This document shows positions 7,845-31,854 of a stretch of 64,000 nucleotides of DNA, piece after piece. Below the pieces are notes generated by a model. The model made no database searches. It saw only the letters and a program-made list of their open reading frames with translations, and was not told where the DNA came from. Within the stretch, counting starts at the first letter, position 1; each line of letters begins with the position of its first letter. The position numbers were made by a program, and so were the translations under genes. Location: NCBI RefSeq assembly GCF_001424945.1, contig NZ_LMCW01000001.1, positions 466,025 through 530,024 of the forward strand. Direction: 5' to 3'. The stretch comes from Rhizobium sp. Root1203 (GTDB taxonomy: Bacteria; Pseudomonadota; Alphaproteobacteria; Rhizobiales; Rhizobiaceae).

Positions 7845-7847
7845 GGA

Positions 7848-8234: not shown

Positions 8235-8261
8235 TGCACTTCTCCTGTTCGCGCCTGTGCG

Positions 8262-8492: not shown

Positions 8493-9398
8493 ATGGCAAT
8501 CCGTTTCGACCGCCCTGTTTCCAATGCCGCCCGCTTTTCGCGGCGCTTTGCAGCGTTTGCGCTGGTGCTTTGCCTTGCAGCTCTGGTCGGCCATCGTTTC
8601 GGCGGGCTTGCCACGCCCTATCTCGTGCTGATCCTCCTTGTCTCCGCAGGCTTCGCGGCGTTGGCCGCCTTCCTGGCGTTCGCCGGGTTTCGAAGCCTTT
8701 GGCTGACAGGTGCCGAGGGTGGACATGACGCCTTGAAGGGACTGGTTTTCGCCGCCTTGCCGCTGGCCATCGGAGCCCTTGCGGCAGAACGCTATTTCGC
8801 CATGCCGGCCATCTACGACGTCTCGACCGACGTCGTTTCCGCGCCGGAATGGTTGAAGCCGCCGAATGCCGATCAGATCTGGCTGAAGCGCGAGGCCGTG
8901 ACCGCGGACGATCGCGAGAAACAGCTGGAAACCTATCCGGAGCTGACCGGCCGTCGCTACGACGGTGCGATCGACCGCGTGCTCGACGCGGTGAAGAAGG
9001 TTGCCAAGCTGAATGGTATCAGGATCACCCGTGCCGAGGGCGACAGCGTGCCGTCGCGCGATCTGGAGGACAAGCCCGCCAGGGCCGGCGCGGAAGACGG
9101 CGCCGTCGCCGATGCTCCGGAGGCCGTCCCCGTTCCGATCCCGAGGCCCTACGAGGATGACGTGGCCCAGCTCATCCGCCGCGCCAATGGCGTGACACTG
9201 CAGGGCGAGACGCGGACGCTCGTTCTCGGCCTGCGCTTCGATGTCGTCATCCGGCTGCGCGAGGAGGCCGAAACCACCTTTGTCGACGTGCGCGTCGCCT
9301 CCCGCTACGGCCCCGCCGATCTCGGCTTCAGCGCCGATATCGCCGACGATTATCTGAAGGCGCTCGACTCCGAACTGCTCGGCATCGCCGGCAGCTAG
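8493..9398 (+). CDS. DUF1499 membrane protein
   Basis: A 301-residue inner-membrane protein. The first ~95 residues hold three hydrophobic segments. The C-terminal ~170 residues form a soluble domain matching DUF1499: LETYPELTGRRYDGAIDRVLDAV, then a Pro/Ala-rich linker, then RTLVLGLRFDVVIRLREE and VDVRVASRYGPADLG. Function of the family is unknown. The ATG at 8493 is used; a TTG overlaps it at 8490. The stop overlaps the convergent gene by 4 bases. Confidence 0.8.
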   Translation: MAIRFDRPVSNAARFSRRFAAFALVLCLAALVGHRFGGLATPYLVLILLVSAGFAALAAFLAFAGFRSLWLTGAEGGHDALKGLVFAALPLAIGALAAERYFAMPAIYDVSTDVVSAPEWLKPPNADQIWLKREAVTADDREKQLETYPELTGRRYDGAIDRVLDAVKKVAKLNGIRITRAEGDSVPSRDLEDKPARAGAEDGAVADAPEAVPVPIPRPYEDDVAQLIRRANGVTLQGETRTLVLGLRFDVVIRLREEAETTFVDVRVASRYGPADLGFSADIADDYLKALDSELLGIAGS

Positions 9399-14837: not shown

Positions 14838-15300
14838 TTCGTTTATGCGGATGCACACGCGGAAACGCCACCGACAGGTTGAGGATTTTTCAAGCCGTCG
14901 TCGATGGAGCGGATCCCGCAATGTGCTGAGGGGGACGTCGCCAGCGACTTGGTACCCCCCATTCCCCGCAGCGCGCGGCTCACGGGGCCATCATCAGAAT
15001 TCTGCCCTGGCTGGCTTCCTGAGAGATTCGAGATCGACGCCGCGCTTGCAGCCGACTACGCTTGAAGGACGCGGCCCGCGCTCGGAAACGGAATGTCGAA
15101 CGAGGCGGATTGGTTCGACGAGGAGTGTCACGCAAACGATACCGTTGGCCATTATCGTGAAGCACCTGTTGTGTGACGCCGTGAAATAAGCTTTTCTGAT
15201 GCGAACATCGGGCGCTCTTGCCGCCGATCGGATGACCACACCGACGAAGCGCGTTCGGCACTGCCTAAGGATGACTCCGTTATTCACAGAAGGAGTGGAC

Positions 15301-17559
15301 ATGATGTCCGATCTGGCCAGCATTACGAACACAATGATGTTTACCAACCCGCTCACCGCCTACTGGACCGATGCGTGGCAACGCTCGGTGCTGTACCTGG
15401 ATGTCATGAGACGGCGCGGCGCACAGTATGCGGAGCAGTCCGCGCGTAGCGCGCCGCATGTGCTGGACTATGCCGCGGAACTTGTCTGTGATGGTCGTAG
15501 CCTTGAGAAGCCCGTCAACTACGTGCTGGCGCATATCATCCCGCCGTCGGGCGTCGTCATCGACGAGACCAAACGTCCGTTTGTCGTCGTTGACCCACGC
15601 GCTGGCCATGGACCCGGAATAGGCGGGTTCAAGGCCGACAGTGAGATCGGCGTGGCGATGAAGGCGGGGCATGCATGCTATTTCATCGGGTTCCTGCCGG
15701 AGCCCGTGCCGGGCCAGACGATCGAAGATATCGTTCACGCGGAAGCAAAGTTCCTGGAGACGGTCATCGCGCGCCATCCGGGAGCAGACGGAAAGCCGTG
15801 CGTCATAGGCAATTGCCAGGCGGGCTGGGCCGTCATGATGCTTGCGGCACTGCGACCGGAGCTGTTCGGCCCGATCATCATCGCGGGCACGCCGCTTTCC
15901 TACTGGGCGGGCGTAGAAGGCCAATATCCGATGCGCTACTCCGGCGGTCTTCTTGGCGGGAGTTGGCTGACGGCCCTGACAGGGGACCTCGGCGCCGGCA
16001 AGTTCGATGGCGCATGGCTGGTACAGAACTTCGAGAACCAGAACCCCGCCAACACGCTGTGGAGCAAGCAGTACAACCTCTACTCCAGGATCGACACGGA
16101 AGCCGAGCGCTATCTCGGTTTCGAGCGCTGGTGGGGCGGGCATGTCACGCTGAACGCGGAAGAAATGCAGTTCATCGTCGATGAGCTGTTTGTCGGCAAC
16201 AAGCTTGCCGCAGGCGAGATGCGCACCTCCGACGGCACTGCCGTCGACCTGCGCAACATACGGTCGCCGATCCTTGTCTTCTGCTCAAAGGGTGACAACA
16301 TCACGCCGCCTCAGCAGGCATTGGACTGGATCCTCGATCTCTACGACAGCGTTGACGAGATACGCTCAGTTGGTCAGACCATCGTCTATACCGTTCACGA
16401 GAAGATCGGTCACCTCGGAATCTTCGTTTCCGCCGGCGTCGCCCGCAAGGAACACGACGAATTCGCGTCAAATATCGATCTGATCGATGTCCTGCCTCCC
16501 GGACTTTACGAGGCGGTTCTCGAGCCCGTAGGCGAAGCCGTCGACCATCCGGAACTGGTCACGGGCCAATGGATCATGCGCTGCGAAGCGCGTACGCTTG
16601 ATGATATCCGCGCCCTTGGCGGCAACGATATCGAGGACGAACGCCGTTTTGCCGCTGCCGCGCGGCTCTCGGAAATCAATCTTGCGAACTACCGCGTCCT
16701 CGCCCAGCCGGCGGTCAAGGCGGCCGTCACGCCGCAGGTCGCCGAGATGGCGCGGCATCTCCACCCATTGCGGCTGAGCTATGAAATGTTCGGTCCGCGC
16801 AATCCGATGTTGGCATGGGTCGAAAGCGCCGCGGAATACGTCCGCGAGAATCGTCGTCCTGTGGCGGCCGACAACGTCTTTCTCTCCGCCCAGGAAATGC
16901 TGTCGGAACAAATCGTGGATGGGCTCGAAGGCTGGCGGATTATGTCGGAGCGCCTCGCCGAGGAGACGTTTCGCGCGGTGTACGGCGCGGCTCCCCTGCA
17001 GGCGGCCCTTGGAATCGATCCGGATTCCAGCCGTCCGCCGCGAAAGGCGCCCAAGAGTCTGTTGAGTGGCGCACTCCTGAAAACCCGCGTTGCCGCCTTG
17101 AAAGAGAAGATCACGAAGGGTGGTCAATTGGAGGGCCTTGCGCGATCGCTACTCTATGTCGGCATGGCGCGGGGCAATGCTGATGAGCGCGGCTTCGAGG
17201 CGATTCGAAAAATAAGGCGCGACCAGCCCGCGGCCAATCGGTTGACGCTCGCGGAGTTCAAGGCATTGGTGCGCGATCAATATTTCATGTTGCTGATCGA
17301 TGAGGCTGCCGCTCTTGCGGCAATTCCGGCACTCCTGCCGACAGATATCGACGAGCGCCGGAAGGCATTCGATGTTCTGCGCGATCTGTTGGAGTCGTCT
17401 GGAACATTGGCAGGTGCTGCGGCCGAGCGGCTCGACCACGTGGCTGGCCTCTTTAGGCTCGACACGCCTGATCCTGGTGGCGACCCCGTCGCCAGACCCA
17501 TCGGCAAGACCGCTCGCTCACCAACGCGTCCTGATCGAAGAGAGGGGCTACCCCATTGA
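15301..17559 (+). CDS. DUF3141 protein with a PHA-synthase-like alpha/beta-hydrolase core
   Basis: A 752-residue cytosolic protein matching DUF3141. The catalytic pattern is that of PhaC polyhydroxyalkanoate synthases: the nucleophile elbow is GNCQAGW with Cys172 in place of serine, the aspartate is in FCSKGDNITPP, and the histidine is in EKIGHLGIFV. The C-terminal ~300 residues are helical and have no counterpart I recognise. A role in hydroxyacyl-CoA polymerisation or acyl transfer is inferred, not shown. ATG 15301 follows aaggag. The stop overlaps the next start by 4 bases, so it heads a pta-ackA-fabI operon. Confidence 0.8.
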   Translation: MMSDLASITNTMMFTNPLTAYWTDAWQRSVLYLDVMRRRGAQYAEQSARSAPHVLDYAAELVCDGRSLEKPVNYVLAHIIPPSGVVIDETKRPFVVVDPRAGHGPGIGGFKADSEIGVAMKAGHACYFIGFLPEPVPGQTIEDIVHAEAKFLETVIARHPGADGKPCVIGNCQAGWAVMMLAALRPELFGPIIIAGTPLSYWAGVEGQYPMRYSGGLLGGSWLTALTGDLGAGKFDGAWLVQNFENQNPANTLWSKQYNLYSRIDTEAERYLGFERWWGGHVTLNAEEMQFIVDELFVGNKLAAGEMRTSDGTAVDLRNIRSPILVFCSKGDNITPPQQALDWILDLYDSVDEIRSVGQTIVYTVHEKIGHLGIFVSAGVARKEHDEFASNIDLIDVLPPGLYEAVLEPVGEAVDHPELVTGQWIMRCEARTLDDIRALGGNDIEDERRFAAAARLSEINLANYRVLAQPAVKAAVTPQVAEMARHLHPLRLSYEMFGPRNPMLAWVESAAEYVRENRRPVAADNVFLSAQEMLSEQIVDGLEGWRIMSERLAEETFRAVYGAAPLQAALGIDPDSSRPPRKAPKSLLSGALLKTRVAALKEKITKGGQLEGLARSLLYVGMARGNADERGFEAIRKIRRDQPAANRLTLAEFKALVRDQYFMLLIDEAAALAAIPALLPTDIDERRKAFDVLRDLLESSGTLAGAAAERLDHVAGLFRLDTPDPGGDPVARPIGKTARSPTRPDRREGLPH

Positions 17560-18512
17560 TTGATCTGACCACGACAACGCCCAATCCCTCCAAATACGAC
17601 CGCCTGATCGCCGCCGCACGGGAAGTGGCGCCGGCCGTGACGGTCGTGGCGCATCCCTGCGACGAGACCTCGCTGCAGGGGGCGCTTGACGCTGCCGAAA
17701 GCGGATTGATCGTTCCGGTTCTGGTCGGACCGTCGGCCAAGATCCGGGAAGTGGCTGCGGGCAAGGGGCTCGATCTGAAAGACCACGAGATCGTCGACGC
17801 TCCGCATAGTCACGGTGCCGCCGCCCAGGCGGTCGCCCTGATACGGGAGGGCAAGGGCGAACTCCTCATGAAGGGCAGCCTGCACACGGACGAACTGATG
17901 CGCGAGGTCACGGCGTCCGCCACCGGCTTGCGCACCGAACGCCGGATCAGCCACGTTTTCGTGATGGACGTGCCCGGCTACCCCGATACGCTCTTCATCA
18001 CAGATGCTGCCATCAACATCTTCCCGGACCTCGCTGTCAAACGCGACATCGTTCAGAATGCGATCGATCTCTGGACGACGATCGGGCTCGGTCAACCACG
18101 CGTGGCAATCGTCTCCGCCGTAGAGACGGTGACGACAAAGATACCTTCGACCATAGACGCTGCGGCGCTGTGCAAGATGGCCGATCGCGGACAGATCACC
18201 GGCGGGATACTCGACGGCCCGCTTGCTTTTGACAATGCTATAAGTCCGGAAGCGGCAAGCATTAAAGGGCTTACCTCGCCCGTCGCCGGCCGGGCACAGA
18301 TCATCGTCGTGCCGGATCTCGAGTCAGGAAACATGCTGGCCAAGAACCTGACCTTTCTCTCGCATGCCGATGCCGCAGGCATCGTGCTCGGCGCGCGCGT
18401 GCCGATCGTGCTGACGTCTCGGGCGGACACTGTGCGTAGCCGTCTCGCGTCGTGCGCTGTTGCAACGCTCTACGCGGCGGCGCGGCGGCGCGGCGCGCAA
18501 GTGGTGGCCTGA
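17556..18512 (+). CDS. Phosphate acetyl/butyryltransferase-family enzyme
   Basis: A 318-residue PTA_PTB-domain protein of the kind usually labelled bifunctional enoyl-CoA hydratase/phosphate acetyltransferase, here with the acyltransferase domain only. Family features include [18 protein letters not shown] near the N-terminus, [29 protein letters not shown] and [15 protein letters not shown]. It should exchange acetyl (or butyryl) groups between CoA and phosphate. The TTG start overlaps the upstream stop and ackA follows after 2 bases, indicating translational coupling in one operon. Confidence 0.85.
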
Positions 18513-18514: not shown

Positions 18515-19693
18515 ATGGACGCAATCCTTGTCGTCAACGCAGGGTCGTCGAGCCTCAAATTCCAGATCTTCGAGGTGACCGATGGCGGCCTCAGGCGGTG
18601 CATTCGCGGCCAGATCGACGGCATCGGGACGCAGCCGCGCCTCGTGGCAAGAGGGCCTGACGGTGAGGTTTTGGTTGACCGCCGCTATGCGCCCGAGGTG
18701 GTCGACCACCTGCCGGCGGCGATCGCCGAAACACGCGCCTGGCTGCAGACGCTTGAGGGTTTTACCCTCCGGGCTATCGGCCATCGCGTCGTCCACGGCG
18801 GTCCGGATTACGCAAGGCCGATCCTGATCGATCATGATATCCTGGACACGCTCGCCACCTTCCAGGAGCTTGCGCCACTGCACCAGCCAAACAATTTGGC
18901 TCCGATCCGGCTCGCCATGGAGATCGATCCCGACGTGCCGCAGGTCGCCTGCTTTGATACGGCTTTTCATCGAGGCCACGCCCCCCATACGGATTGTTAC
19001 GCCTTGCCGGCGACCTACTACGAACAGGGCGTGCGGCGATACGGGTTCCATGGCCTCTCCTACGAATATATTGCCGAGCGATTGGCCGACGTCGCGCCTG
19101 ACATTGCGGGCGGGCGCATCGTCGTTGCCCACCTCGGCAGCGGCGCTTCGATGTGCGCGATGAAAGAGGCGCGGAGCGTCGAGACGACGATGGGGTTTAC
19201 TGCGCTCGACGGCTTGCCGATGAGCACCCGGCCAGGGCAGATGGATCCCGGTGTCGTGCTGTACCTGATCGATCAGCAGGGCATGACCGTGGCTGAGGTC
19301 ACCGACCTTCTCTACAGAGCATCGGGCCTGAAGGGACTTTCCGGCATCTCCGGTGATATGCGTGACCTCCTTGCCAGCAAGGACCCGTGTGCCGCTTTCG
19401 CGATCGACCACTTCATTCATCGTTGTGCGCTCAGCGCCGGCATGCTTGCGGCGGCGCTCGGAGGTCTGGACGCCTTCGTGTTCACCGCCGGCGTCGGGGA
19501 GCACTCGGCTCCGATCCGCGCCCGCATCAGCGAACGGCTCGCCTGGCTCGGTGCCGAACTCGACCCCGCGGCAAACGAAGCGGGCGACACTCTCATATCC
19601 ACGCCAGCGAGCCGCGTTCGTCTTTACGTCCTGCCGACAGACGAGGAGCTGATGATTGCACGCCATACGCTTGCGCTCATCAATGCGTCCTGA
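18515..19693 (+). CDS. ackA: Acetate/propionate kinase
   Basis: A 392-residue ASKHA-fold kinase. Phosphate loop [14 protein letters not shown] is at residues 4-17, IGHRVVHGG follows, the AckA signature [14 protein letters not shown] is near residue 170, HLGSGASM is a nucleotide loop, and FTAGVGEHS is the C-terminal loop. It makes ATP and acetate from acetyl phosphate. Directly after the Pta-family gene and opposite a phosphoketolase, it can harvest ATP from phosphoketolase-derived acetyl phosphate. The ATG is preferred to longer readings that overlap pta. Confidence 0.93.
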
Positions 19694-19718
19694 AGCCAAT
19701 CTCGAGGAGATGCAACCA

Positions 19719-20504
19719 ATGTCCGCTCCGGTCATCAACGCACAGCTTCTCAGGGGTCGAAAGGGGCTGATCGTTGGCATCGCCAATGATCGCTCCATCG
19801 CCTGGGGCTGTGCACGGGCTTTCCACGCCTTCGGCGCTGAACTTGCGGTTACTTATCTCAACGACAAAGCCAGGCCCTTCGTGGAACCGCTCGCCGGTGA
19901 GGTAGAAGCATCGATCTTCATGCCGCTGGACGTCTCTGTTCCCGGTCAGCTCGAAGCGGTCTTCGACCGTATCGCCAGCACCTGGGGTGAGCTCGATTTC
20001 GTTGTCCACTCGATAGCCTTCTCACCCAAGGACACGCTCGGCGGCCGTGTCGTCGATGTGCCTCGTGAGGGTTTTCTGACGACAATGGATATCTCCTGCT
20101 GGTCATTTATCCGCATGGCTCATCTGGCCGAGCCGCTGATGAAGAACGGCGGCACGCTGTTCACGATGACTTATTACGGATCGCAGATGGTCGTCGAAAA
20201 CTACAACGTCATGGGTGTGGCGAAGGCGGCGCTGGAATGCGCCGTGCGCTATCTGGCAGCCGAACTCGGGCCAAAGGGGATCAGGGTGCACGCCATCTCG
20301 CCCGGCGCGCTGGCCACGCGTGCGGCCTCGGGGATTCCCGAGTTCGACGAGCTGCTGGAAAAGACCAAGTCGAAGTCGCCGGCCCGGGAGCTCATCGACA
20401 TCGACGACGTCGGTGTCGCCACGGCCTTTCTCGCGCACGATGCCGCCCGCCTGATTACCGGACAGGTGCTCTATGTGGATGGCGGATATCATATCGTCGA
20501 CTGA
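19719..20504 (+). CDS. fabI: Enoyl-[acyl-carrier-protein] reductase (FabI type)
   Basis: A 261-residue SDR enzyme that reduces enoyl-ACP with NAD(P)H. GLIVGIANDRSIAWGCA is the FabI nucleotide loop. VVHSIAFSPK and MTYYGSQMVVENYNVMGVAK follow, with the catalytic Tyr-x6-Lys spacing intact (YNVMGVAK). The end, ITGQVLYVDGGYHI, is typical. The start follows gaggaga. It is last in the DUF3141-pta-ackA operon and is likely a secondary FabI, since the housekeeping copy is normally elsewhere. In this context it may reduce enoyl groups for acyl-CoA or storage metabolism (inference). Confidence 0.92.
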   Translation: MSAPVINAQLLRGRKGLIVGIANDRSIAWGCARAFHAFGAELAVTYLNDKARPFVEPLAGEVEASIFMPLDVSVPGQLEAVFDRIASTWGELDFVVHSIAFSPKDTLGGRVVDVPREGFLTTMDISCWSFIRMAHLAEPLMKNGGTLFTMTYYGSQMVVENYNVMGVAKAALECAVRYLAAELGPKGIRVHAISPGALATRAASGIPEFDELLEKTKSKSPARELIDIDDVGVATAFLAHDAARLITGQVLYVDGGYHIVD

Positions 20505-20547: not shown

Positions 20548-21867
20548 CTAGAGCCAGCCGCCGGAAAATCCCGCGCGCCGCAACCCGGTTACAACGGGTT
20601 TGGATTGACGCATTATGTTCCAGAGCAAGCCCGTCCGATAGTTTTCGATCATCAGCACAACCGGTCCTTGGTCGATGCCGAAATGATAGGGGCTCACCCA
20701 CCAGCCCGTAGAACTATTCTCGACGGGATATGTCTGGTTGAATGACGGTTTGAAACCGTAAAGCCGCGTCATGCCGAGGTTCATCCGCGCAAAGTGGCGA
20801 ATGGTTGGCACGACGATTTCCGGCGCAAACGGCAGCGAGGCCACGACGACCCATGGCGCTACAGTTCCATCGTCGGGTCCGAAAGGCGCACCCCTGGCAA
20901 TGTAGTCGAAGAACTCGCGATCGACTCCCTCCAGCTTCCGCTTGCCCCAACCAGGCCCGTCGCACGCAGTGAACCCCCAGCAATGCTCGCCATATCCGGC
21001 AAAGTTCATCGGGTTGCGGATTGCATATTCCTGCTGGACATATGTCGCATGCCGGCTGTTTTGGAAATAGTCGCTGTCGTGCTCGCGCATGAATGCGTCC
21101 CTGATGCCTCGAAAGTCGATCCACATGTGCGAGAGCTGATGCGTAAAGAGCGGCCCCGAATACAGAAGTTCGCGGCCGTAGATATTTCTCCACTCGTAGC
21201 GCTCAGTGTAGGCGTCATAGGATTCCGGGGGCAATGGATGAGTCGGGGATCCGAGGCCAAGGATGTATAGGAGCAGGCCTTCATCGTAGCCACGCCACCG
21301 ATAGGGGATGAAGCCGCTCTCCGGATGCCAGCCATGCGTTAGGGTGGCACCGCCGTTGCGAGCCCAATTCCAATCTGCTCGTTCGTACAGCGCCATCGCA
21401 AGCTGACGGATTTCCACCTCATCGGCCTTGTCGCCATCAAAGTACGCGGCGACGGTCAAGGCACCCACGAACAAGAAGGCCGAGTCAATCGTTGACAGTT
21501 CGCACTGCCACGCGCGCCGCCCGGTTTCGATGTCAAGAAAATGGTAGAAAAAGCCTTTGTACCCCGATGAATCGGTCTCCGGCCCCTGCGGGCAGGCCAT
21601 GAGATATCTCAATCTGCTGCGGGTGATCTTTGCGGCAAACTCGCGGATAAGAATGCCGCGCTCTACAACAACCGGGATAGTCGCCAGCGCCATTCCAATC
21701 GCTGCGATGCTTGCGGGGGTATTGGGTTCTGTCTTGTCGCGAACCAGTCCGTTGTCCGGATTTGTGCAGTGGAGATAGTACAACAGGGTGGTGAATTGCA
21801 ATCGACTGAGGTCCTGCTCGGTCGGCAGGCGGTCGAAATCCGCGTCCGTTGAGAGCGTTTCGGCCAT
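20548..21867 (-). CDS. Glucoamylase-like (PF10091/GH144-type) glycosidase
   Basis: A 439-residue soluble alpha/alpha-barrel protein of the 'putative glucoamylase' family that includes GH144 endo-beta-1,2-glucanases and a domain of cyclic beta-1,2-glucan synthase. Features: LQFTTLLYYL at the start, SSGYKGFFYHFLDIETGRR, ELSTIDSAFLFVGAL, WRGYDEGLLLYILGLGSP, and CWGFTACDGPGW. No signal peptide, so it is likely cytosolic. It starts 5 bases after the GH94-type gene. A role in cutting beta-1,2-glucan is inferred from family and neighbour. Confidence 0.8.
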   Translation of the reverse strand: MAETLSTDADFDRLPTEQDLSRLQFTTLLYYLHCTNPDNGLVRDKTEPNTPASIAAIGMALATIPVVVERGILIREFAAKITRSRLRYLMACPQGPETDSSGYKGFFYHFLDIETGRRAWQCELSTIDSAFLFVGALTVAAYFDGDKADEVEIRQLAMALYERADWNWARNGGATLTHGWHPESGFIPYRWRGYDEGLLLYILGLGSPTHPLPPESYDAYTERYEWRNIYGRELLYSGPLFTHQLSHMWIDFRGIRDAFMREHDSDYFQNSRHATYVQQEYAIRNPMNFAGYGEHCWGFTACDGPGWGKRKLEGVDREFFDYIARGAPFGPDDGTVAPWVVVASLPFAPEIVVPTIRHFARMNLGMTRLYGFKPSFNQTYPVENSSTGWWVSPYHFGIDQGPVVLMIENYRTGLLWNIMRQSKPVVTGLRRAGFSGGWL

Positions 21868-21872: not shown

Positions 21873-24800
21873 CTAACCAATTCCGACGTGTACATCATGC
21901 AGGCGTCCGTCTTCCACAAGCGGGACGCTTGCGTTCGGGACAGGTTCCCCGTCCAGCGTGACGGAGTACACGCCTCGGCCGATGCCTTTTGAATTGTCAA
22001 AACGGATGCGGTAGGTCGCCGATCCATGTCGGTAGGTAATCTCATAGGCGGGCCAGCCTGTCGGAACGCACGGCGCGAACCGCAGAAATGCGCCTTGCCG
22101 GTGAAAGCCAAGGATTGCCTCGAGCGCTACGCGATAAAACCAACTGGCCGACCCGGTGTACCATGCCCACCCACCGCGACCCGTGTGTGGCGCCGCGCCA
22201 TAGACATCCGCGCAGACCACGTAGGGTTCCACCTTGTAGCGCTCGATTTGGTCTTTCGTTGCGCCATGGCAAATTGGATTGATAAGGTTCCAGAGCTTTA
22301 AGGCGAGATCGCCATCGCCCTGCAGGGCCGTTGCCCAGACGACCCAGGTCGCGGCGTGGGTGTATTGGCCGCCGTTTTCCCGGATGCCAGGGACGTAGCC
22401 TTTGATGTAGCCGGGTTGCAGCACGCCTTTGTCGAAAGGTGGGTCGAAGAGTTTGATCATCTTGTCCGCCGGGAGTACGAGCCGCTCGTGAACCGCACGC
22501 ATCGCCTGCGCCGCACGTTTCGCATCCGCCTCGCCGGAAATGACAGCCCAGGCTTGGGGGAGGGCGTCGATCTGGCACTCGTCGTTCAGGGATGACCCGA
22601 GCGGTGTGCCGTCGTCGAAATATGCCCGGCGATACCAGCCGCCGTCCCAGGCGTTGGCTTCGATAGCCTTGCGCAGCGCCTCGACCCGATCGCGGCACCA
22701 GGCGGTTCTGTTTTGATCTCCACGCGACGATGAAATCTCGGCAAATGATTTCAGGACCGTGAGGAAAAACCAGCCGTTCCAGACGCTCTCGCCCTTGCCT
22801 TCGGCGCCGACCTTGTTCATGCCGTCGTTCCAGTCACCGGTCCCCATGAGGGGAAGGCCGTGGCGGCCCAATCGATAGCCATGCTCCAGCGCACGGACGC
22901 AGTGTTCGTAGACGGAGCCGAACTGTTCGCTGGTCGCCGGTTGGTTGAAGTCTTCTTCCTGGCCGTCTTTCAGCACCGGTGACGTGATGAAGGGAACCAT
23001 TTCATCAAGCAGTTGGACGTCGCCGGTCGTCGACACGTAGTGGTGGACGACCAGAGGCAGGAAATAGAGGTCATCGGTGATGCGGGTACGCACGCCGATG
23101 CCCGATGGAGGATGCCACCAGTGCTGGACGTCTCCCTCCTCAAATTGCCGTGCTGCCGATCGCAGGATATGAGAGCGGGTCTCGCTCGGCCTGCTGTAGA
23201 CCAGAGCCATCACGTCCTGGAGCTGATCCCTGAATCCGTAAGCGCCTCCGGACTGATAATTGGACGTGCGCGCCCAGACACGGCACGCCAAGACCTGGTA
23301 CAACAACCAGCGATTCATCATCAAGTCCAAGCCGGGATCGGGCGTGCTCACCTGGATCGAGTTTAGAATATCATCCCATTGGCGCGAGACAGCCGACAGG
23401 CTTGAGACTGCACGCTCAGGGTCGGCGTGTTCGTGGACCAGCCTGTGGACTTCACCGAGGTCGATGGCTTCTCCCAGAACAAAGACGACTTCCCGGCTTT
23501 CGCCGGGCGACAGGGAAATGTCCACCATCAGCGCCGCGCAGGGATCCAGCATTGGGCCGAACCGTTCGGCGAGATCGGTTCGCAGCATCGCCGCAGGCTG
23601 ACATACGGAACCATAGTTGCCGAGAAACTCAGTACGATCGGATGTTGCCGAACGCGGCGGCTCACTGGCGGCTGCGAAAGCCAGTTTCCCGGCAAAGTCT
23701 CCGCCCCAGGGGTTTCTGGCCACGATAGCGCCCGACCGCGTATCCCGCGAGCAGACAATCCGCGTCGCCGCGTCTTCGCGGTGTGTCCCAAGGACCCACT
23801 CAGCGAAATAGGTTGCGGTGACGTGCCGAGCTCGAACATCATCGTTCGTAAGTCTGAGACGAATGATCTTGACCGGATCGTTGAGCGGAACGGAGATCGT
23901 GAGCTCTTGATTGAGATGACGGCTGTGACCGATATAACGGCTGTAGCCTTGGCCGTGACGAACGGTCACCGCCGCACCAGGGCCGATAGGTAGCGGTGTC
24001 GGCGTCCAGATGTCACCGGTTTCTTCATCTCGCAAATAGAGGACCTCGCCAGGCATGTCCGCAATTGGATCGTTGGACCATGGCGTCAGGCGGTTCATCT
24101 GACTGTTCTGCGACCAGGTGTAACCAAGACCAGCTTCTGTCGTCAGGCAGCCAAATTCGGGATTCGCGATCACATTGGTCCATGGCGCAGGCGGCAGGGC
24201 AGGGGCGCGTGGTTTGGCGGCGTCGACGAGCACGACGTATTCACGTCCATCGGATGTGAACCCGCCCAACTCGTTCCAGTATAGCAATTTCTCGGCCGGT
24301 TCAGGAGGCGGGGCTGCGGGTTGCTTGTTCGGCCGAGCGGTCAGGGTCGACGGAAGAGGTGGCAGTGTCGGAAAGGGTCGTTTGAGTTGCTCGCCAAGGT
24401 CACCACCACTTCCCAGCAGGACGACGCGCGCGGCGGCAACGATGGTCGCCAGATGGTCGCCTTCCGTAGAAAGGACGAAAATCCCTCCAGGTTTGCTGAT
24501 CATTTCGCCGTATGGGCCGGATCGCAGCTTTCCGGTCAGCCGCCTGACGCTCGCCGCACCGCCCTCCTCAAGCAGGACCAGGTCAAATCTCAAGCCCCTC
24601 CGCCGAGCGAAATCGTAGCCCGTCGTAACCTGGCGAACGAGGGTGTGATCCCGATCTCCATTCGTGCGGACCAGGGCGATCGGAAGGTCGCCGGAAATCC
24701 CTTGAGCCCAGAGAGCGGCTCGATCCAATCGCTCTGTCGGGAGAGCGGTTGCCTGTCGCATGGCCGGGTTCGCAAACAAGACGCTCCCAGCCAATCGATT

Positions 24801-25781
24801 GAACAACGACACCTCGTCAGGCTTCAGGCCAAGCGTCCGAAGCTCGGTTTCATATCGCTCGGATGCCGCGAGGAACGCCCGCTCGGCAGCATCGATATTC
24901 GCGTATCTCCGAGCGATGCCGTCCACCGTTGACTGATCATCTGCGGCTCCCGTGACGAAGGCGAGGCGTGCCTCACCGCCGGGGGACAATCGAACAACCC
25001 TTCGCAAACAGAAAACCGGGTCGAGAACGGGGCCAGTCGTCCCGGAAAGCGGTGCGCCTTCGTCGAAGATCGCGGGACTGGCCGTTGTTCGGCCCCGGCC
25101 AAGAAATCTCAGCCGATCAGTTTCATACTGTAACTCCTGGGGCTGCGGTAGGTCGGATGAGGAAACGTGGACTGCCCACGTGGCTTTTTCCCCGGACGCG
25201 CGAGGCCTGCGGCGCGCAAACAAGGCGCCTGTTGCCTCGTCGAACCGGGTTTCGACAAACAGCTTGGCGAAGGCCGGATGCGCCATGTCCGCACGACGAT
25301 TGTTGAGGCAGACCTCGGCATAGCTTGTCAATTCGAGGATACGCTCGCCGGTGCCATGGTTCGTGACGCTGAGCATGCGCACTTCTGCGTCCACATCCGT
25401 TGCGACGCAGATTTTCCAGAGGATCTCGATATCGCCGGCATGACAGCGGAACTCGGCTCTGTCTCCAAAAAAGGCGTGTTGGTAGACGTGTCCCGGTCGG
25501 GGCCGCGGCTGCCTTCCTATGGACCAGAGGTCGTTGCCCGATAGATCCCGGACATAACAAAACTGGCCCCAGCAATCGCGCGTCCTGTCCTCACGCCACC
25601 GCGTAACGTCCAGGTCTTGCCAGGTTGCGTACCCGGTGCCGGCGGCCGTGGCCAGGACGCTGTACCGATCGTTGGAAAGCAAGGCGATGGCGGAGCCGGG
25701 GTGAACCGGCTCACCGACGCTGTTTTGCCATACGGTCTTGGACGCACTCGTTGCCACTGGAACCTCCGTTCGACGGGACAT
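21873..25781 (-). CDS. GH94-type glycoside phosphorylase, NdvB C-terminal-like
   Basis: A 1302-residue soluble protein built of two successive GH94 N-terminal-type beta-sandwich segments (roughly 10-300 and 500-800, the first marked by YSVLATAAGTGYATW and the second by LTTEAGLGYTWSQNSQMNRL), a linker, and the catalytic barrel. The barrel has YGFRDQLQDVMAL and the general-acid motif GTGDWNDGMN near residue 980, and closes with HTGRGGWAWYTGSASW. This is the phosphorylase half of cyclic beta-1,2-glucan synthase (NdvB/Cgs) without the GT84 membrane part. Expected chemistry is glucan plus Pi to glucose-1-phosphate. It starts 6 bases after xfp. Confidence 0.85.
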   Translation of the reverse strand: MSRRTEVPVATSASKTVWQNSVGEPVHPGSAIALLSNDRYSVLATAAGTGYATWQDLDVTRWREDRTRDCWGQFCYVRDLSGNDLWSIGRQPRPRPGHVYQHAFFGDRAEFRCHAGDIEILWKICVATDVDAEVRMLSVTNHGTGERILELTSYAEVCLNNRRADMAHPAFAKLFVETRFDEATGALFARRRPRASGEKATWAVHVSSSDLPQPQELQYETDRLRFLGRGRTTASPAIFDEGAPLSGTTGPVLDPVFCLRRVVRLSPGGEARLAFVTGAADDQSTVDGIARRYANIDAAERAFLAASERYETELRTLGLKPDEVSLFNRLAGSVLFANPAMRQATALPTERLDRAALWAQGISGDLPIALVRTNGDRDHTLVRQVTTGYDFARRRGLRFDLVLLEEGGAASVRRLTGKLRSGPYGEMISKPGGIFVLSTEGDHLATIVAAARVVLLGSGGDLGEQLKRPFPTLPPLPSTLTARPNKQPAAPPPEPAEKLLYWNELGGFTSDGREYVVLVDAAKPRAPALPPAPWTNVIANPEFGCLTTEAGLGYTWSQNSQMNRLTPWSNDPIADMPGEVLYLRDEETGDIWTPTPLPIGPGAAVTVRHGQGYSRYIGHSRHLNQELTISVPLNDPVKIIRLRLTNDDVRARHVTATYFAEWVLGTHREDAATRIVCSRDTRSGAIVARNPWGGDFAGKLAFAAASEPPRSATSDRTEFLGNYGSVCQPAAMLRTDLAERFGPMLDPCAALMVDISLSPGESREVVFVLGEAIDLGEVHRLVHEHADPERAVSSLSAVSRQWDDILNSIQVSTPDPGLDLMMNRWLLYQVLACRVWARTSNYQSGGAYGFRDQLQDVMALVYSRPSETRSHILRSAARQFEEGDVQHWWHPPSGIGVRTRITDDLYFLPLVVHHYVSTTGDVQLLDEMVPFITSPVLKDGQEEDFNQPATSEQFGSVYEHCVRALEHGYRLGRHGLPLMGTGDWNDGMNKVGAEGKGESVWNGWFFLTVLKSFAEISSSRGDQNRTAWCRDRVEALRKAIEANAWDGGWYRRAYFDDGTPLGSSLNDECQIDALPQAWAVISGEADAKRAAQAMRAVHERLVLPADKMIKLFDPPFDKGVLQPGYIKGYVPGIRENGGQYTHAATWVVWATALQGDGDLALKLWNLINPICHGATKDQIERYKVEPYVVCADVYGAAPHTGRGGWAWYTGSASWFYRVALEAILGFHRQGAFLRFAPCVPTGWPAYEITYRHGSATYRIRFDNSKGIGRGVYSVTLDGEPVPNASVPLVEDGRLHDVHVGIG

Positions 25782-25787: not shown

Positions 25788-28253
25788 TCAAGCATTGTCT
25801 CCTTCAGTCGAGGTTTTTTGACGCGCTCCTGGCTGGCCTTTCGAGCCCCATTTCCAGCCACTGATCGCGGGCATGTCGTCTCCGTGCTTCTCGATGTATT
25901 GCCGATGTTCGACCAGCTTTTCGTGAATTGCCTGTTTGAGATAGCCCGCGCGCGCACCCAACTGGGGCAGCCGATCGATCGCATCCTCGACCAGATGGAA
26001 CCGATCCATTTCATTGAGGACAACCATATCGAACGGCGTCGTCGTCGTTCCCTCTTCCTTATAGCCTCGGACGTGCAGATTGCCGTGATTGGTACGGCGG
26101 TAGGTGAGCCGGTGAATGAGCCACGGATAGCCGTGGAACGCGAAGATGATCGGCTTGTCCCTGGTGAAGAGGGCATCGAAGTCGCGATCCGACAGACCGT
26201 GCGGATGCTCGGTCGGCGGCTGAAGCTTCATCAGGTTCACCACGTTGACAAGGCGGACCTTAAGTTCTGGCAGGTGCTCTCGGATCAGCTCGATTGCCGC
26301 GAGCGTCTCGAGCGTTGGAACGTCACCGCAACATGCCATGACCACGTCGGGCTCGCTCCCCTTGTCGTTGCTGGCCCACTCCCAGATGCCAATGCCTTGG
26401 CTGCAATGCTTGATGGCCTGATCCATCGTCAGCCACTGCGGTGCAGGCTGCTTGCCGGCGACGACGACGTTGACGTAATTGCGGCTGCGCAGGCAGTGAT
26501 CGGTGACTGACAGAAGCGTATTGGCATCCGGCGGCAGATAGATCCGGACAACATCTGCCTTCTTGTTGGCGACGTGGTCCAGGAAGCCAGGGTCCTGATG
26601 GCTGAACCCGTTGTGGTCCTGCCGCCAGACGTGGGAACTCAGGAAATAATTAAGCGAGGCGATCGGACGCCGCCATGGAATGTGGTTGCACACTTTCAGC
26701 CATTTGGCGTGCTGGTTGAACATCGAGTCGATGATATGGATGAAGGCTTCATAGCAGGAAAAGAAGCCATGCCGGCCGGTCAACAGGTAACCTTCGAGCC
26801 ATCCCTGGCATTGATGTTCGCTGAGAACCTCCATCACTCGTCCGTCCGGTGAAAGATGGTCGTCTTCCGGATAGATCTCGGCCATGTAGCAGCGGTCGGT
26901 GACTTCCAGCACGTCCTGCCACCGGTTGGAGTTGTTCTCATCGGGGCTGAACAGGCGAAAGTTCTTGTTCTCCATATTCATCTTCATGACATCACGGAGA
27001 AACTTGCCCATCACCCTCGCCGACTCGGTGACGGTTTGCCCGGGGCCTGGTACCGATACTGCGTAGTCCTGGAAGTCGGGCATCTTCAGGTCGCGCAACA
27101 GCAAGCCGCCGTTGGCATGCGGGCTGTCGCTCATCCGGCGATGCCCAACAGGCGCCAGTGCGGCGAGCTTTGGCTTGAACTGGCCGGCGTCGTCAAACAG
27201 TTCCTGTGGGCGGTAGCTCTTCATCCACTCCTGGAGAATACGAATGTGATCCGGCTTGTCCATGTCGCCCATCGGCACCTGGTGCGCCCGCCAGTAGTCC
27301 TCGCATTTTTTCCCGTCAATCTCGGGCGGGCAGGTCCAGCCTTTAGGCGTGCGGAAGACGATCATCGGCCACATCGGACGTTTCACGTTGCCTTTGGTGC
27401 GGGCATCCGCCCAGATTCTCTTGATGTCCGCCACCGCGGTATCGAGCGTGCCGGCCAATTGCTGGTGCACGCTGGCCGGGTCACTACCCTCGACGAAATA
27501 CGGCGTGTAGCCCATGCCTTCAAACAATTTTCGCAGCTCTTCGCGCGGAATGCGGGCAAGGAAGCATGGATTGGCGATCTTGTAGCCGTTCAGGTGCAGG
27601 ATCGGCAGCACGCAGCCGTCGCGAGCGGGATTTAGGAACTTGTTGCTGTGCCACCCCGTTGCCAGCGGGCCTGTTTCTGCTTCTCCATCTCCGACTACGC
27701 ATGCGACGATCAGATCTGGGTTGTCGAACGCCGCACCGTAGGCATGGCTGAGAGCGTAGCCCAGTTCGCCGCCCTCGTGCATGCTGCCAGGCGTTTCCGG
27801 GGCCACGTGGCTGGGAATGCCGCCGGGGAAGCTGAACTGTTTGAACAGCCTCTTCATGCCTTCGGTGTCCTGGCCTACGTTGGGATAAACCTCGCTGTAG
27901 GTGCCTTCGAGATAGGCATGCGCGACCAGCGCCGGCCCACCATGTCCCGGTCCTATCACATAGATCATTTCGAGATCATCGCGTTTGATAACGCGATTGA
28001 GGTGCACGTAGAGCATGTTCAAGCCGGGTGTCGTGCCCCAATGACCCAGCAGCCTTGGCTTTATGTGCTCGCGCTTCAGCGGTTCTTTCAGCAGTGGGTT
28101 GTCGAGAAGATAGATCTGACCGACGGACAGATAGTTCGATGCACGCCAATAGGCGTCCAACGACTGCAGTTCCTCCGCCGAAAGGGGGCCGCCCGATGCC
28201 TTGTTCCCGCTGATGGCGACCTTCGCATCTCCTGCCGTGTTAAGCGAAACCAT
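25788..28253 (-). CDS. xfp: Phosphoketolase
   Basis: An 821-residue thiamine-diphosphate enzyme that splits xylulose-5-phosphate (and often fructose-6-phosphate) with Pi into acetyl phosphate and a triose or tetrose phosphate. Family features: [40 protein letters not shown], the ThDP motif [11 protein letters not shown], and [13 protein letters not shown]. Length is typical. The ATG follows aggagg. It leads the operon xfp-GH94-GH144; acetyl phosphate would feed AckA and the Pta-like enzyme encoded opposite. A CBS gene lies 110 bases upstream on the same strand. Confidence 0.95.
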
Positions 28254-28363
28254 GGGTGCCTCCTCCTATGAGCCCAGATTGCTACGGTAAGATCTTCCAA
28301 GGTGAGAATCGTCGTATTTTCAACTGCTTTGCGTCGGCGCAACCACTGATATCGTCCGACCCT

Positions 28364-29032
28364 TTATGCAGAAACCGCGGGGAAGTGCTCAACCACACCT
28401 CTGACGCCGCGGACACTCTCGGCGGCTACGCGCGCAGCCTTCTTGCACTCTGCGGTGTCAACGTTTCCCCAGAGGTGGGCTACCCCGTCGGAGACGGTTA
28501 CAGTCATGCCTTTTCCGGCAAGACCCGTATTTTCGCTGAGGCGGATCGCAATGCTGCGACGGATCGCCTCGTCACCCGGTGCGGTTGCATCCTGGCTTGC
28601 CGCGATAATCGCCTCCAAAAGGTTCGCGCGACTAATGATACCGACGAGTTTCCCCTCTCTGACCACAGGAATGCGTTTAATGCGATGTTCCTGCATCAAC
28701 CTGGAGACCTGTCCGAGAGATGCGTCCTCGTCCACGACCACGGGCTCGCGGCTCATGACGTCGGCCACCCTCCACGCGTTGCTCTTGACATACGAACTGG
28801 CTTTCTCGTCGGCAGTGGGGAGGGGTGTTCCGAGTTCGGCAATGGCTCCCTGGCCCAACTCCGATCTCCGCAGCAGGTCACCCTCGCTGATGATTCCGAC
28901 GAGGTCACCTGCATCGTCGATCACCGGGACGCCGCTTATGTGATTGGTGAGCATGATCTCGGCGGCCCGCCTGACACTGTTGTCCGGTGATACCCCGACA
29001 ACCTGCGTGGTCATCATGTCTTTGACGAGCAT
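28364..29032 (-). CDS. CBS-pair protein with a C-terminal BON domain
   Basis: A 222-residue soluble protein. The first ~145 residues form two CBS motifs (VKDMMTTQVVGVSPDNSV...GVPVIDDAGDLVGIISEGDLL and VADVMSREPVVVDEDAS...RIPVVREGKLVGIISRANLL), which sense adenine nucleotides in many proteins. The last ~60 residues are a BON domain (ITVSDGVAHLWGNVDTAECK-like fold, ending VRGVRGVVEHF). ATG 29032 follows gggaagg and begins directly at the CBS domain. Next to phosphoketolase, it could report energy charge; this is inference. Confidence 0.88.
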   Translation of the reverse strand: MLVKDMMTTQVVGVSPDNSVRRAAEIMLTNHISGVPVIDDAGDLVGIISEGDLLRRSELGQGAIAELGTPLPTADEKASSYVKSNAWRVADVMSREPVVVDEDASLGQVSRLMQEHRIKRIPVVREGKLVGIISRANLLEAIIAASQDATAPGDEAIRRSIAIRLSENTGLAGKGMTVTVSDGVAHLWGNVDTAECKKAARVAAESVRGVRGVVEHFPAVSA

Positions 29033-29142
29033 CGCTGCACGACCTTCCCTTTGAGGGCACCGAGCCATTATCAAACTACACCTGTTGCGGGCGTTCGACA
29101 ACCGTTTCACCGGTGTTCCGGTGGCATTGACGTGGCAGCGCC

Positions 29143-30831
29143 TCAAGCCGGGCTGCCCATCCACTGCCATCCGCCATCCTTGCCGATTTCCAGGACGGCA
29201 TCGTGGCAATCGCTTAGGGCGTCCGTTTCCGCGCTCATGATGCAGGTAATAGAATTCTCGGTAAGGATTTGCAGAATACTGTGAAGCTGGTCGCGACCCA
29301 GTGTCATGTCGATGCGGTCCAAGAAGGCGAACCTGGGCATCGCGACAAGAATACTGGCGAGCGACAGAAGTTGCTGCTCCTGCAGTGAAAGCAACATTTC
29401 CCAGTCTTTCTCTACATCTAGCCCCGCGTGATCGAGGAGATACTCAAGATTGAGGTTGCGCAGGCACCGTACGATGCGTTCCTCCGGGACGTCGTCCGCG
29501 CGTGCATTGCGGACAAGAGCCTGTCGTAGTGTGCCTGTCGGCATATAAGGGCGCTGAGGAAGGAAAAGTATGTCGTCGGGGGCTGGGCGGATGATGCGTC
29601 CGGTGGAGCCTTTGAACGAAATGCCGGCAGTTGCTTTGAACAGCGCTGTTCGAGCGCCTTGAGCGGGCCCGGTGATCAAGACGCGCGCTCCGACGGGGAT
29701 CGAAAGCGACAAGTCTCTTACGAGGGGGGCTCCATTCGGCGATGACAACAGAGTCAACCGCTCGTAGGCCAGACACCCTGTTTTCTCGATAAACTCGATT
29801 CCCGATTCCGCGGGTGTTTGCACCTGTTCGATAGCCTCCATCAGGGAGCTAAGCCGCGCGACGACCGCAGCGAACGTCGAGATGGACTTAAACTGGGTTA
29901 TGATAAGGGAAAAAGCCCCCACGAGCATTGCGAAAGCCGCGCCGGATTGGGTTATCACCCCGAACTCGATGTCCCCTCTGATGTAGGCAGGCGCAATGAT
30001 CAAGGCGGGAATGATTTGGATGAGCCAGTTATAGCCGGTGGTGAAGAATCCCACGTTGCGATTGATCGCGGTGACTTCGCGAAAATTGGTGACCACCTCG
30101 TCAAGCCGCTGCAGCAGACGAAAACTCTGCTGCCCTTCGCAGCGCGCCAGCATAATGGATTCGGCGTTTTCTCGAACTTGAATTAGGCTGGCGCGGAAGC
30201 TGGCCTCCTTGTCGAGCTGGTCATAGTTCAGTTTGATCAATGGTCGCCCAAGCGTGATCGTCAAGTACGACCCGCCAGCCGCATACAGCACGGCGACGAC
30301 AAACAGCAGGGGGCTTATTGACCAAAGCACACCGGAAAACGCTATGATCGTGAGGCTGCTGCTAAGCGCCATAAGGATGAACGACAGGGTCGTCACTGTG
30401 AAGGCGCGCATGTCCTCGGCGATACGCTGGTCGGGGTGTGTGAGCTGCCCGGAGACATCCAGTTGATAGTAGGTTCCGTCGGCCAGGTAGGAATTGACGG
30501 CCCGCCGGGTGAGGAAATCTCGCCAGAGCAGTGCAAGGCGCTCTTCGACAAATCGGGAGACGACCGAAACGACGGTGAAGGCCGCAAACACCGCAATGTA
30601 AAATGTTGCCTGCCGGATGAATTCGGCGGTTTGGCGATCGGCGATCGCGCTCATGAAGTTGCGGCCCACGTAGCTGTTTACGACGTTCAGACCATTGAGG
30701 GCGAACAAAAGCGCCACCAATCCGCCAAACATCACCCTGGCTTTCCTGCCGACGCCGGAGGTCAGGAAGACCGTGAGCGCTCGCACGAAGCGAACGGCCG
30801 TTGTTTTGAAGGGAATCTGTTGTTTCTCCAT
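29143..30831 (-). CDS. ABC half-transporter (YddA/SbmA-like) with a degenerate ATPase domain
   Basis: A 562-residue fusion. Residues ~15-330 form six membrane helices of the ABC_membrane_2 type shared by YddA and peroxisomal ABCD proteins and related to SbmA/BacA. The C-terminal ~200 residues keep the ABC fold (DILFLPQRPYMPTGTLRQAL Q-loop region). However, Walker A reads GPAQGARTA (Lys to Arg), the signature reads LSLQEQQ (Gly to Gln), Walker B is FAFLDR (catalytic Glu to Arg), and the H-loop histidine is absent (IMSAET). ATP hydrolysis is therefore doubtful. The start is uncertain: ATG 30831 has gggaaag upstream, while 30849 and 30876 are alternatives. Confidence 0.85.
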   Translation of the reverse strand: MEKQQIPFKTTAVRFVRALTVFLTSGVGRKARVMFGGLVALLFALNGLNVVNSYVGRNFMSAIADRQTAEFIRQATFYIAVFAAFTVVSVVSRFVEERLALLWRDFLTRRAVNSYLADGTYYQLDVSGQLTHPDQRIAEDMRAFTVTTLSFILMALSSSLTIIAFSGVLWSISPLLFVVAVLYAAGGSYLTITLGRPLIKLNYDQLDKEASFRASLIQVRENAESIMLARCEGQQSFRLLQRLDEVVTNFREVTAINRNVGFFTTGYNWLIQIIPALIIAPAYIRGDIEFGVITQSGAAFAMLVGAFSLIITQFKSISTFAAVVARLSSLMEAIEQVQTPAESGIEFIEKTGCLAYERLTLLSSPNGAPLVRDLSLSIPVGARVLITGPAQGARTALFKATAGISFKGSTGRIIRPAPDDILFLPQRPYMPTGTLRQALVRNARADDVPEERIVRCLRNLNLEYLLDHAGLDVEKDWEMLLSLQEQQLLSLASILVAMPRFAFLDRIDMTLGRDQLHSILQILTENSITCIMSAETDALSDCHDAVLEIGKDGGWQWMGSPA

Positions 30832-31201
30832 GGCAGTATTCTTTCCCATGGGTGAATGCGCAAATTTAAAGCACAACCGCGCCTAGAACACCACTCCGCC
30901 ATGTTGGACGTAAACTGAAGTCAAGAAATGGATCGGAAGTTCAATCTCAGTGCATGCTCGGCCTGACCGCTACCGCAGGAGTCGAAGCTGGCGGTCAAAC
31001 GCGGTTTCCTCCACGTGCTCTCCAGAGATCAGGTTCGACATATCCTGCCCCATGCCGCCCAGATCGGCACAGCCGCATCTCAATCAATACTGCATAAGTT
31101 GCTACCGAAACGAGGTAAATCATACTGCATTGTGAGGTATGCGGATGTTTCGCCCGTCGTGTTAGCCTGTTTTTCAAGAAAAACGCTAGGGCAGGGACGA
31201 T
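30832..31201. promoter_or_regulatory. Divergent intergenic region at the right edge of the island
   Basis: About 370 bases between divergent genes, presumably with both promoters. A 9-bp repeat, atactgcat, occurs at 31087-31095 and 31122-31130, 35 bases apart. No gene, RNA or clear FNR/FixK box was seen. This is the likely right border of the island, but no convincing copy of the tRNA-Pro 3' end is present. Confidence 0.35.
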
Positions 31202-31435
31202 ATGTCAAAGTATATCCTGGTTCAGGACGACGACAGGTGGGCGATCGTCGATGAGGCTACGCAGGCACCCGCAAGGATCGATGGCGTGTGGCTTGCACAG
31301 ATGCAGCATGACGAGGCGCGGCAGATGATCAAGATCCTGCGGGGCATCGAGGTCATCCGCGGCGCGTCGACGCGCACGGCCGTGTCGGCGAAGCGACTTG
31401 GAAGGCTGGCGCTCCATGGCGCCGGTATCGAATAG
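31202..31435 (+). CDS. Small hypothetical protein
   Basis: A 77-residue soluble protein (YILVQDDDRWAIVDEATQAP at the start, then KILRGIEVIRG). It has no motif I recognise, no signal peptide and no membrane segment. Support comes from the ATG with agggacgat upstream and a protein-like composition. Function unknown. Confidence 0.5.
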   Translation: MSKYILVQDDDRWAIVDEATQAPARIDGVWLAQMQHDEARQMIKILRGIEVIRGASTRTAVSAKRLGRLALHGAGIE

Positions 31436-31545
31436 CGCGCGCACATGGGGCAGGCGAGGCTGGTGCCTCGGAAAGCGGACGCTTTCCGTTTTTTCAATCC
31501 CGAGTATAGTTGCGGCATCGGTGATCTCGCTGCAGGGAGAGAGAC

Positions 31546-31854
31546 ATGCAAGCCAGGGCAAAAGGCGTGATCCTAGCGGCCGCTTTTTTGATGCCGTCGG
31601 CAGTCTTTGCGGCCGAGGCGCTGAAGGTCGACGGCCGCGCCCACACGTGCAGCGAGCTCGCGCAGATCATCCGCCAGAACAAATCGGTTTTCGTCCGGGT
31701 GGGCATCGGCGGCCGCAGTTTCCGCTATCCGCCGGCCAAATGTAAGCTGGGCGAGAAGCGCGACACCACCAACTTTCGGGATGCGGCCGGCAAGCAGTGC
31801 GTCCTCGACTACGCCTGCGTCTACGATTCGCAGTCCTTCTATAATTTCCGCTAG
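31546..31854 (+). CDS. Small secreted cysteine-containing protein
   Basis: A 102-residue protein with a Sec signal peptide (VILAAAFLMPSAVFA, cleavage after Ala23). The mature ~80 residues contain four cysteines (HTCSEL, PAKCKLG, KQCVLDYACVY), likely two periplasmic disulfides, and end in QSFYNFR. The start follows agggagagac. I know of no function; short Cys-rich exported proteins of this sort are frequent in rhizobia. Confidence 0.75.
   Translation: MQARAKGVILAAAFLMPSAVFAAEALKVDGRAHTCSELAQIIRQNKSVFVRVGIGGRSFRYPPAKCKLGEKRDTTNFRDAAGKQCVLDYACVYDSQSFYNFR

Follow-up and report, generated by a model that had tools for sequence, protein, structure and literature searches.

A clade of ABC_membrane_2 half-transporters with degenerate ATP motifs in Rhizobium and beyond, and a tentative link to beta-1,2-glucans

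In the window analyzed here (the whole stretch of 64,000 nucleotides from Rhizobium sp. Root1203), we found a half-transporter gene, pseudo-ABC, whose relatives form, by sequence, a monophyletic branch of the ABC_membrane_2 family (YddA/BclA/ABCD-like) that has kept the predicted fold of the nucleotide-binding domain (NBD) and the docking segments and has lost the ATP motifs. We give about an even chance to pseudo-ABC being a transporter that works without ATP, has a structural pseudo-NBD, and may carry beta-1,2-glucans; the independence from ATP, the transport, and the cargo are what we infer.

The window protein and its motifs

The open reading frame runs from an ATG at 30831 to a stop at 29143-29145 on the minus strand and encodes 562 aa without an internal stop, in keeping with an earlier note on this DNA that had described the frame as preserved. 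Pfam placed the protein in ABC_membrane_2 (PF06472) at 128.7 bits, well above the cut-off of 24.4, with a weaker match to SbmA_BacA (PF05992) at 53.8 bits and no match to ABC_tran (PF00005) up to E 1. The features of the gene are as follows.

29143..30831, minus strand: pseudo-ABC half-transporter, 562 aa, transmembrane domain (TMD) plus dead NBD (ORF, Pfam, structure model)
29827..30831, minus strand: TMD, residues 1-335, ABC_membrane_2 (PF06472 over residues 23-281; model helices)
30406..30450, minus strand: first coupling-helix segment, about residues 128-142 (boundaries approximate), kept as in canonical ABC proteins and largely gapped in SbmA/BacA
30145..30177, minus strand: second coupling-helix segment, about residues 219-229 (boundaries approximate), kept, gapped in SbmA/BacA
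29155..29799, minus strand: pseudo-NBD, residues 345-559, predicted NBD fold without a PF00005 match
29644..29670, minus strand: degenerate Walker A GPAQGARTA, residues 388-396 (sequence)
29554..29556, minus strand: Q-loop Gln426, retained (Gln in 35 of 49 clade rows)
29371..29391, minus strand: degenerate signature LSLQEQQ, residues 481-487 (sequence)
29314..29331, minus strand: degenerate Walker B FAFLDR, residues 501-506, Asp505 kept and the catalytic Glu replaced by Arg506
29224..29241, minus strand: degenerate H-loop IMSAET, residues 531-536, His replaced by Glu535

Aligned with 23 canonical relatives, a set put together with their motifs already known, so that “23 of 23” is partly a matter of choice, the window protein has Arg for the Walker A Lys at 394, Gln for the signature Gly at 484, Arg for the catalytic Glu at 506, and Glu for the H-loop His at 535, leaving none of these four ATPase motif residues. 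The four motif strings read in the earlier note all lie at the positions listed above. Its statement that every key catalytic residue had been lost is borne out for the four substitutions and is otherwise a slight overstatement, since Walker B Asp505, Q-loop Gln426, and signature Ser482 and Glu485 are still present. Judged from these replacements, it is likely that pseudo-ABC cannot hydrolyze ATP, and it probably cannot bind it.

The NBD fold, which the earlier note had called preserved, is complete in the predicted structure (mean pLDDT 76.4, pTM 0.69), where its 10-residue blocks score between 70 and 92. The TMD is less certain in the model, with 10-residue blocks under pLDDT 60 at residues 1-10, 141-160, 261-270, and 291-320. 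The best structural matches of the model were ABCD1 (Z 26.0, rmsd 7.0, 413 aligned) and Rv1819c (Foldseek E 6e-21), and the NBD alone matched PDB entries at Z ~21. Promoter and terminator scans of 28000-31600 gave scores at or below the shuffled mean. A low-oxygen link through a FixK/FNR box (TTGAY-N4-RTCAA) was considered and rejected: the window holds two one-mismatch sites where 3.6 are expected, both more than 18 kb from the pseudo-ABC gene.

Spread of the clade and selection on the pseudo-NBD

We searched 61 genomes (its own, 36 of the same genus, and 24 of the same order) and found orthologues of 56-76% identity in 13 same-genus genomes besides its own, all 13 lacking the same four residues. 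A family sample of 199 genomes held pseudo-ABC in five at E <= 1e-60 (56-100% identity), namely its own, two of the same genus, and two of other genera; the sixth match was a 30% relative. A wider scan of 84,980 species, with one genome per species and two peptide patterns, returned 57 loci, a lower bound from a scan that cannot be taken as complete. The farther loci (44-56% identity) came from Thiocapsa and from MAGs named Methylococcaceae, Gammaproteobacteria, Deltaproteobacteria, Binatia, Methylocapsa, and Luteolibacter, and the dead state is common to Rhizobium, Phyllobacterium, Mesorhizobium, Ensifer, Thiocapsa, and several MAG lineages. Two records carry titles that fit poorly with their sequences. 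L084, titled Mycobacterium sp. KBS0706, groups with alpha-proteobacteria by its gene, has a phosphoketolase fragment 97% identical to that of Inquilinus L091, and is probably mislabelled. L076, titled a Klebsiella pneumoniae MAG, is nearest to the gamma MAG L082 and was probably mis-binned.

Among the 50 loci whose C-terminal part was inspected, one has canonical motifs (L086 from Rhizonema, 39% identity), and L079 is readable only to the Q-loop. The earlier note had left room for a single mutated copy among canonical close orthologues. None of the close orthologues found is canonical, and the nearest canonical relatives found, from cyanobacteria and Cupriavidus (L086, L157, and L156), are 34-39% identical; on this comparison, the motif loss is a property of the clade and not of one mutated copy.

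The extent of the loss was counted over 49 full-length rows, for which seven partial or broken loci (L065, L075, L087, L089, L090, L091, and L092) had been left out before the motif table and two partial ones (L079 and L083) before the counts. The catalytic Glu occurs in none of the rows (Arg 29, Lys 15, Asn 2, His 2, Gln 1; Arg or Lys in 44), and neither does the H-loop His (Glu 23, Asp 5, others 21; Glu or Asp in 28). The Walker A Lys is gone in 47 and present in two (L067 and L071), while the signature Gly remains in six, with Arg in its place in 30. A Walker B acid is found in all 49 (Asp 20, Glu 29), and the Q-loop position holds Gln in 35 and Glu in 13. At least one acid lies in the P-loop of 42 of the 49 pseudo rows vs 3 of the 23 canonical ones, and we saw no sign that it depends on the signature Arg (26 of 30 rows with Arg, 6 of 6 with Gly). 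L083, a partial row from Methylocapsa, has kept both the Walker A Lys and the signature Gly. This distribution suggests an order of loss, with the catalytic Glu and H-loop His gone everywhere and the Walker A Lys and signature Gly surviving in a few rows. Given L067, L071, L083, and the six rows with Gly, some members of the clade may retain residual nucleotide binding.

Selection was assessed in 11 genomes that hold pseudo-ABC, a canonical relative, and a second dead paralogue (55 pairs for each gene). The median ratio of NBD to TMD dN was 2.55 for the pseudo clade, 0.96 for the canonical relative, and 2.94 for the second dead paralogue. For pseudo-ABC, omega had a median of 0.231 (maximum 0.367) in the NBD and 0.096 in the TMD, the latter vs 0.103 in the canonical relatives. 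In many pseudo pairs dS approaches saturation (median 1.8), which makes the dN ratio the safer number. Because omega in the NBD stays at these values and that in the TMD is lower, the constraint on the pseudo-NBD is, as read from substitution rates, relaxed but real, in the form of purifying selection. The earlier note had proposed such a dN/dS measurement and had held that this was not simple decay; with the motif loss clade-wide and a median NBD omega of 0.23, the domain appears to be kept by selection and that view stands. Over 20 diverse rows, the least conserved of the named NBD segments were the A-loop, Walker A, D-loop, and H-loop (0.47-0.50), and those better kept were the helix after Walker A (0.86), the signature (0.76), the post-Q stretch (0.74), and the Q-loop (0.68).

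Neighboring genes and co-occurrence

The genes beside pseudo-ABC are listed below, with counts of homologues over the 34 rhizobial-type loci in which the full gene is present (L084 included); the flanks of some of these loci are cut, which makes the counts lower bounds.

28364..29101, minus strand: CBS-BON protein with two CBS stretches (homologue in 17 of 34)
25788..28253, minus strand: phosphoketolase, XFP (homologue of at least 70% in 31 of 34)
21873..25781, minus strand: GH94 protein of 1302 aa (5 of 34)
20548..21867, minus strand: PF10091 protein, GH144-like, 439 aa (25 of 34)
19713..20504, plus strand: enoyl-ACP reductase-like protein
18515..19693, plus strand: acetate kinase
17556..18512, plus strand: phosphate acetyl/butyryltransferase
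15199..17559, plus strand: DUF3141 protein

The closest PDB match of the PF10091 protein is XcSGL, a GH144 beta-1,2-glucanase (E 1e-112), and its Glu196 aligns with the catalytic position Glu239 of that enzyme. The GH94 protein resembles the C-terminal half of NdvB without the glycosyltransferase part, and among the 61 genomes searched only two others have an orthologue (72-81%). Because gene order and strand vary among the rhizobial-type loci, the link between pseudo-ABC and its neighbors is not just one inherited block. Two of the 34 loci (L057 and L093) have none of XFP, PF10091, and GH94, and the 7-kb flanks of these two and of Thiocapsa L068 held none of these enzymes; of three L068 neighbors scanned, one is ATP-synthase-like and two had no Pfam match.

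Of the 16 other loci, four of which have fewer than 700 bases on the right side, 10 carry a large F5/8-type protein, whole or in part, and six an SOGP-like phosphorylase. Pfam confirmed SOGP domains in L074 and L085, and the F5/8 protein gave a weak GH15-type match in two of the three scanned and none in the third. This F5/8 family is about 1010-1050 aa long (L070:9120-12242, L071, L076, L077, L082, and L085) and often lies beside SOGP-like phosphorylases; the L070 member combines an F5/8-C (CBM32-like) domain with a weak GH15-type match, and most of the family's length has no Pfam match. By hydropathy and with mechanically chosen start codons, 11 of 12 neighbor enzymes had no signal-like stretch, the twelfth frame being over-extended, and for this reason their substrate is probably cytosolic.

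Co-occurrence was also followed beyond the loci themselves. An XFP orthologue (at least 84% identity) and pseudo-ABC were present in the same 14 of 37 genus genomes (Fisher p 1.6e-10, kinship ignored), in one of them (G025) on different contigs, and a PF10091 orthologue (at least 78%) occurred in the same 14 genomes and two more. Among the 199 family genomes, the XFP orthologue (at least 84%) was found in 14 and the PF10091 orthologue (at least 80%) in 13, and each set takes in all five genomes with pseudo-ABC. Across the two samples, pseudo-ABC never occurred without the module; outside the genus, the module often occurred without pseudo-ABC. In another family of the order, L023 (G040:C10:125731-127260) encodes a PF06472 transporter in which Walker A and B are intact and the signature and H-loop are altered, and it adjoins a PF10091 gene at 127478-128692 (36% to that of the window). 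The pairing of transporter and glucanase may recur outside the pseudo clade at this locus.

Descent, alternative readings, and possible mode of action

The TMD tree was built from 72 rows after removal of near-duplicates, by a quick search, and it has long branches (YddA, L148, L144, L156, and others) whose joins may be false. All 29 pseudo rows fell on one branch (SH-aLRT 100), which joins canonical cyanobacterial proteins at 98 and then a canonical Cupriavidus protein. SbmA/BacA forms a separate long branch, and the free tree also separates the pseudo clade from the dead paralogue of Rhizobium. That second PF06472 paralogue, common in the genus (G000:C23:193540-195165, or L150; L016, L018, L021, L024, and L173-L183), has a dead Walker A of the GDHNVNRKL type with no P-loop in 11 of 11 genomes, a signature of the LDxDEQ type, no H-loop His, and its Walker B acids kept. 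It nests among L022, L023, L036, and L153, which we take to be ExsE-like and which have kept Walker A and B and lost the signature Gly and H-loop His. Its erosion is apparently separate from that of the pseudo clade.

The earlier note had proposed that the protein is an evolutionary intermediate between ABC transporters and the proton-driven SbmA/BacA peptide transporters, and here the results contradict it. According to PMC13316013 (a 2026 paper on SbmA), SbmA derived from a YddA-like ancestor; the authors speculate that the NBD was split off from a YddA-like TMD and cite a TMD-only YddA without an NBD in R. tibeticum. The PF05992 match might also seem to favor an intermediate, but that model gives the canonical L086 61 bits, so the match does not discriminate. 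The same paper describes six ladder glutamates in SbmA and a lack of both NBD and coupling helices in SLiPTs. Of the ladder (E193, E203, E269, E276, E287, and E378), the window protein has Glu at 193 and 276, two positions where it is also common in canonical ABC relatives; the pseudo rows have Leu or Ile at 203, mostly Asn at 269 (few Asp, Ser, or Gln), Arg or Lys at 287 (one Gln), and Thr, Asn, or Ser at 378. Both coupling-helix segments align without the gaps of SbmA and the NBD fold is predicted, which departs from the SLiPT description. A forced clade of pseudo rows and SbmA/BacA was 51 log units worse (p-AU 0.0015, on the same quick tree with long branches). Because the branches are separate, the joint clade is rejected, the ladder is mostly absent, and the coupling segments are kept, the conversion of the pseudo clade was most likely independent of SbmA, and an intermediate is very improbable. 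It is improbable, too, that pseudo-ABC is the degenerate half of a heterodimer with an ATP-hydrolyzing partner. Many type IV (type I) exporters have degenerate sites (PMC7756269), but those described still bind ATP and have an active second site, whereas here Walker A itself is lost; the same review notes that ABCD is the only human subfamily without any degenerate-site member. The window genome (97.8% complete) yielded three PF06472-type proteins (pseudo-ABC, the paralogue with a dead Walker A, and BacA without an NBD), so that no intact same-family partner was found in it. The Pfam-scanned neighbors include no exporter half, their ABC-type matches being ABC-F-like (L057) and an importer-type permease (L072).

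Other readings accept the loss and assign the protein a different role. SUR and CFTR are non-transporters built on an ABC frame, and a membrane sensor, scaffold, or channel of that kind would fit an NBD without its motifs beneath a well-conserved TMD. However, the TMD is constrained much as in the canonical relatives, and the named neighbors are mostly metabolic enzymes, even if the CBS protein could be regulatory; we hold this reading unlikely. The replacements are not random (Glu to Arg or Lys, Gly to Arg, and the P-loop acids, at the counts given above), a pattern that would suit a changed site that still bound a nucleotide or another ligand such as a sugar phosphate or acetyl phosphate. 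Between relatives the P-loop itself varies, which speaks against its being a conserved ligand site and makes this reading rather unlikely. To a decaying pseudogene we give next to no weight. Broken copies, which indicate that the gene can be lost, exist in R. tibeticum (L092, about 7001-7540, with stops and a frame change) and Inquilinus limosus (L091, about 7001-8500, with a frame change after about 156 residues), with assembly error possible, and six more loci are truncated at the end of a contig or locus or close to it. But only these two of 57 loci are broken, and the NBD omega does not exceed 0.367 in 55 pairs.

For pseudo-ABC as an ATP-independent transporter, it is moderately probable that two copies would form a homodimer whose TMDs alternate access or provide a gated path, with the docked pseudo-NBDs serving as a structural clamp and the substrate gradient or an ion as the driving force (a carrier or facilitator). 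We identified no ion-coupling residue in pseudo-ABC. LmrA without its NBD reportedly works as a proton symporter, which would be a precedent. More tentatively, pseudo-ABC could carry a beta-1,2-glucan or oligosaccharides derived from it between the periplasm and the cytosol, where the GH144-type glucanase, the GH94-type phosphorylase, and the phosphoketolase would process them. We consider doubtful the wider picture of a multi-phylum ATP-independent family in which an ABC exporter became a secondary or facilitative carrier of beta-1,2-glucan and the NBDs an ion-paired clamp, where acidic residues of the P-loop and H-loop would face Arg or Lys at the signature and catalytic positions in place of Mg-ATP.

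Set against known systems, the clade shares with YddA/BclA and the ABCD-type proteins (Rv1819c, ABCD1, and ABCD4) an ABC_membrane_2 TMD fused to an NBD, the same predicted fold, and the coupling segments; the canonical rows have the ATP motifs and pseudo-ABC does not. Cgt, a cyclic beta-glucan exporter, and the Lin1841-type Sop importer are ATP-driven members of other families than pseudo-ABC. They are described as ABC transporters, and beta-1,2-glucans may be a cargo class in common with pseudo-ABC (PMC11842490, PMC12369401). BclA is reported to require ATP hydrolysis (PMC12003926). SbmA/BacA has a homologous TMD and is likewise expected to work without ATP, but it differs in having no NBD, no coupling helices, and the full glutamate ladder (PMC13316013). 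Exporters with one degenerate site have likewise lost motif residues where a nucleotide binds; in them the other site is active and the degenerate one binds ATP (PMC7756269), whereas pseudo-ABC has lost Walker A and no intact PF06472 partner was found for it.

The pseudo clade remains a variant of a known family. By titles and the beginnings of abstracts among the matches listed, it was not the subject of any open-access (PMC) article we found; members may appear without a name of their own in the trees published in PMC12003926 and PMC13316013. Degeneration of one site is already known, and what we did not find in the literature searched is a whole clade with four ATP motif residues eroded in a probable homodimer. 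As a candidate transporter for beta-1,2-glucans, suggested by its gene neighborhood, pseudo-ABC bears on compounds tied to symbiosis and osmotic adaptation (PMC11842490), and the annotation of the R. binae protein as a peptide transporter may mislead. The step from a primary pump to a secondary transporter is a standing question. The clade offers a natural series whose motor went dead where it sits and was not shed, and with its canonical sister group and the partly eroded L067 and L083 the order of loss can be studied. If the wider picture of an ion-paired clamp and a glucan cargo is true, the clade would have taken a second way, beside that of SbmA/BacA, of turning primary into secondary transport, with the dead motor still attached.
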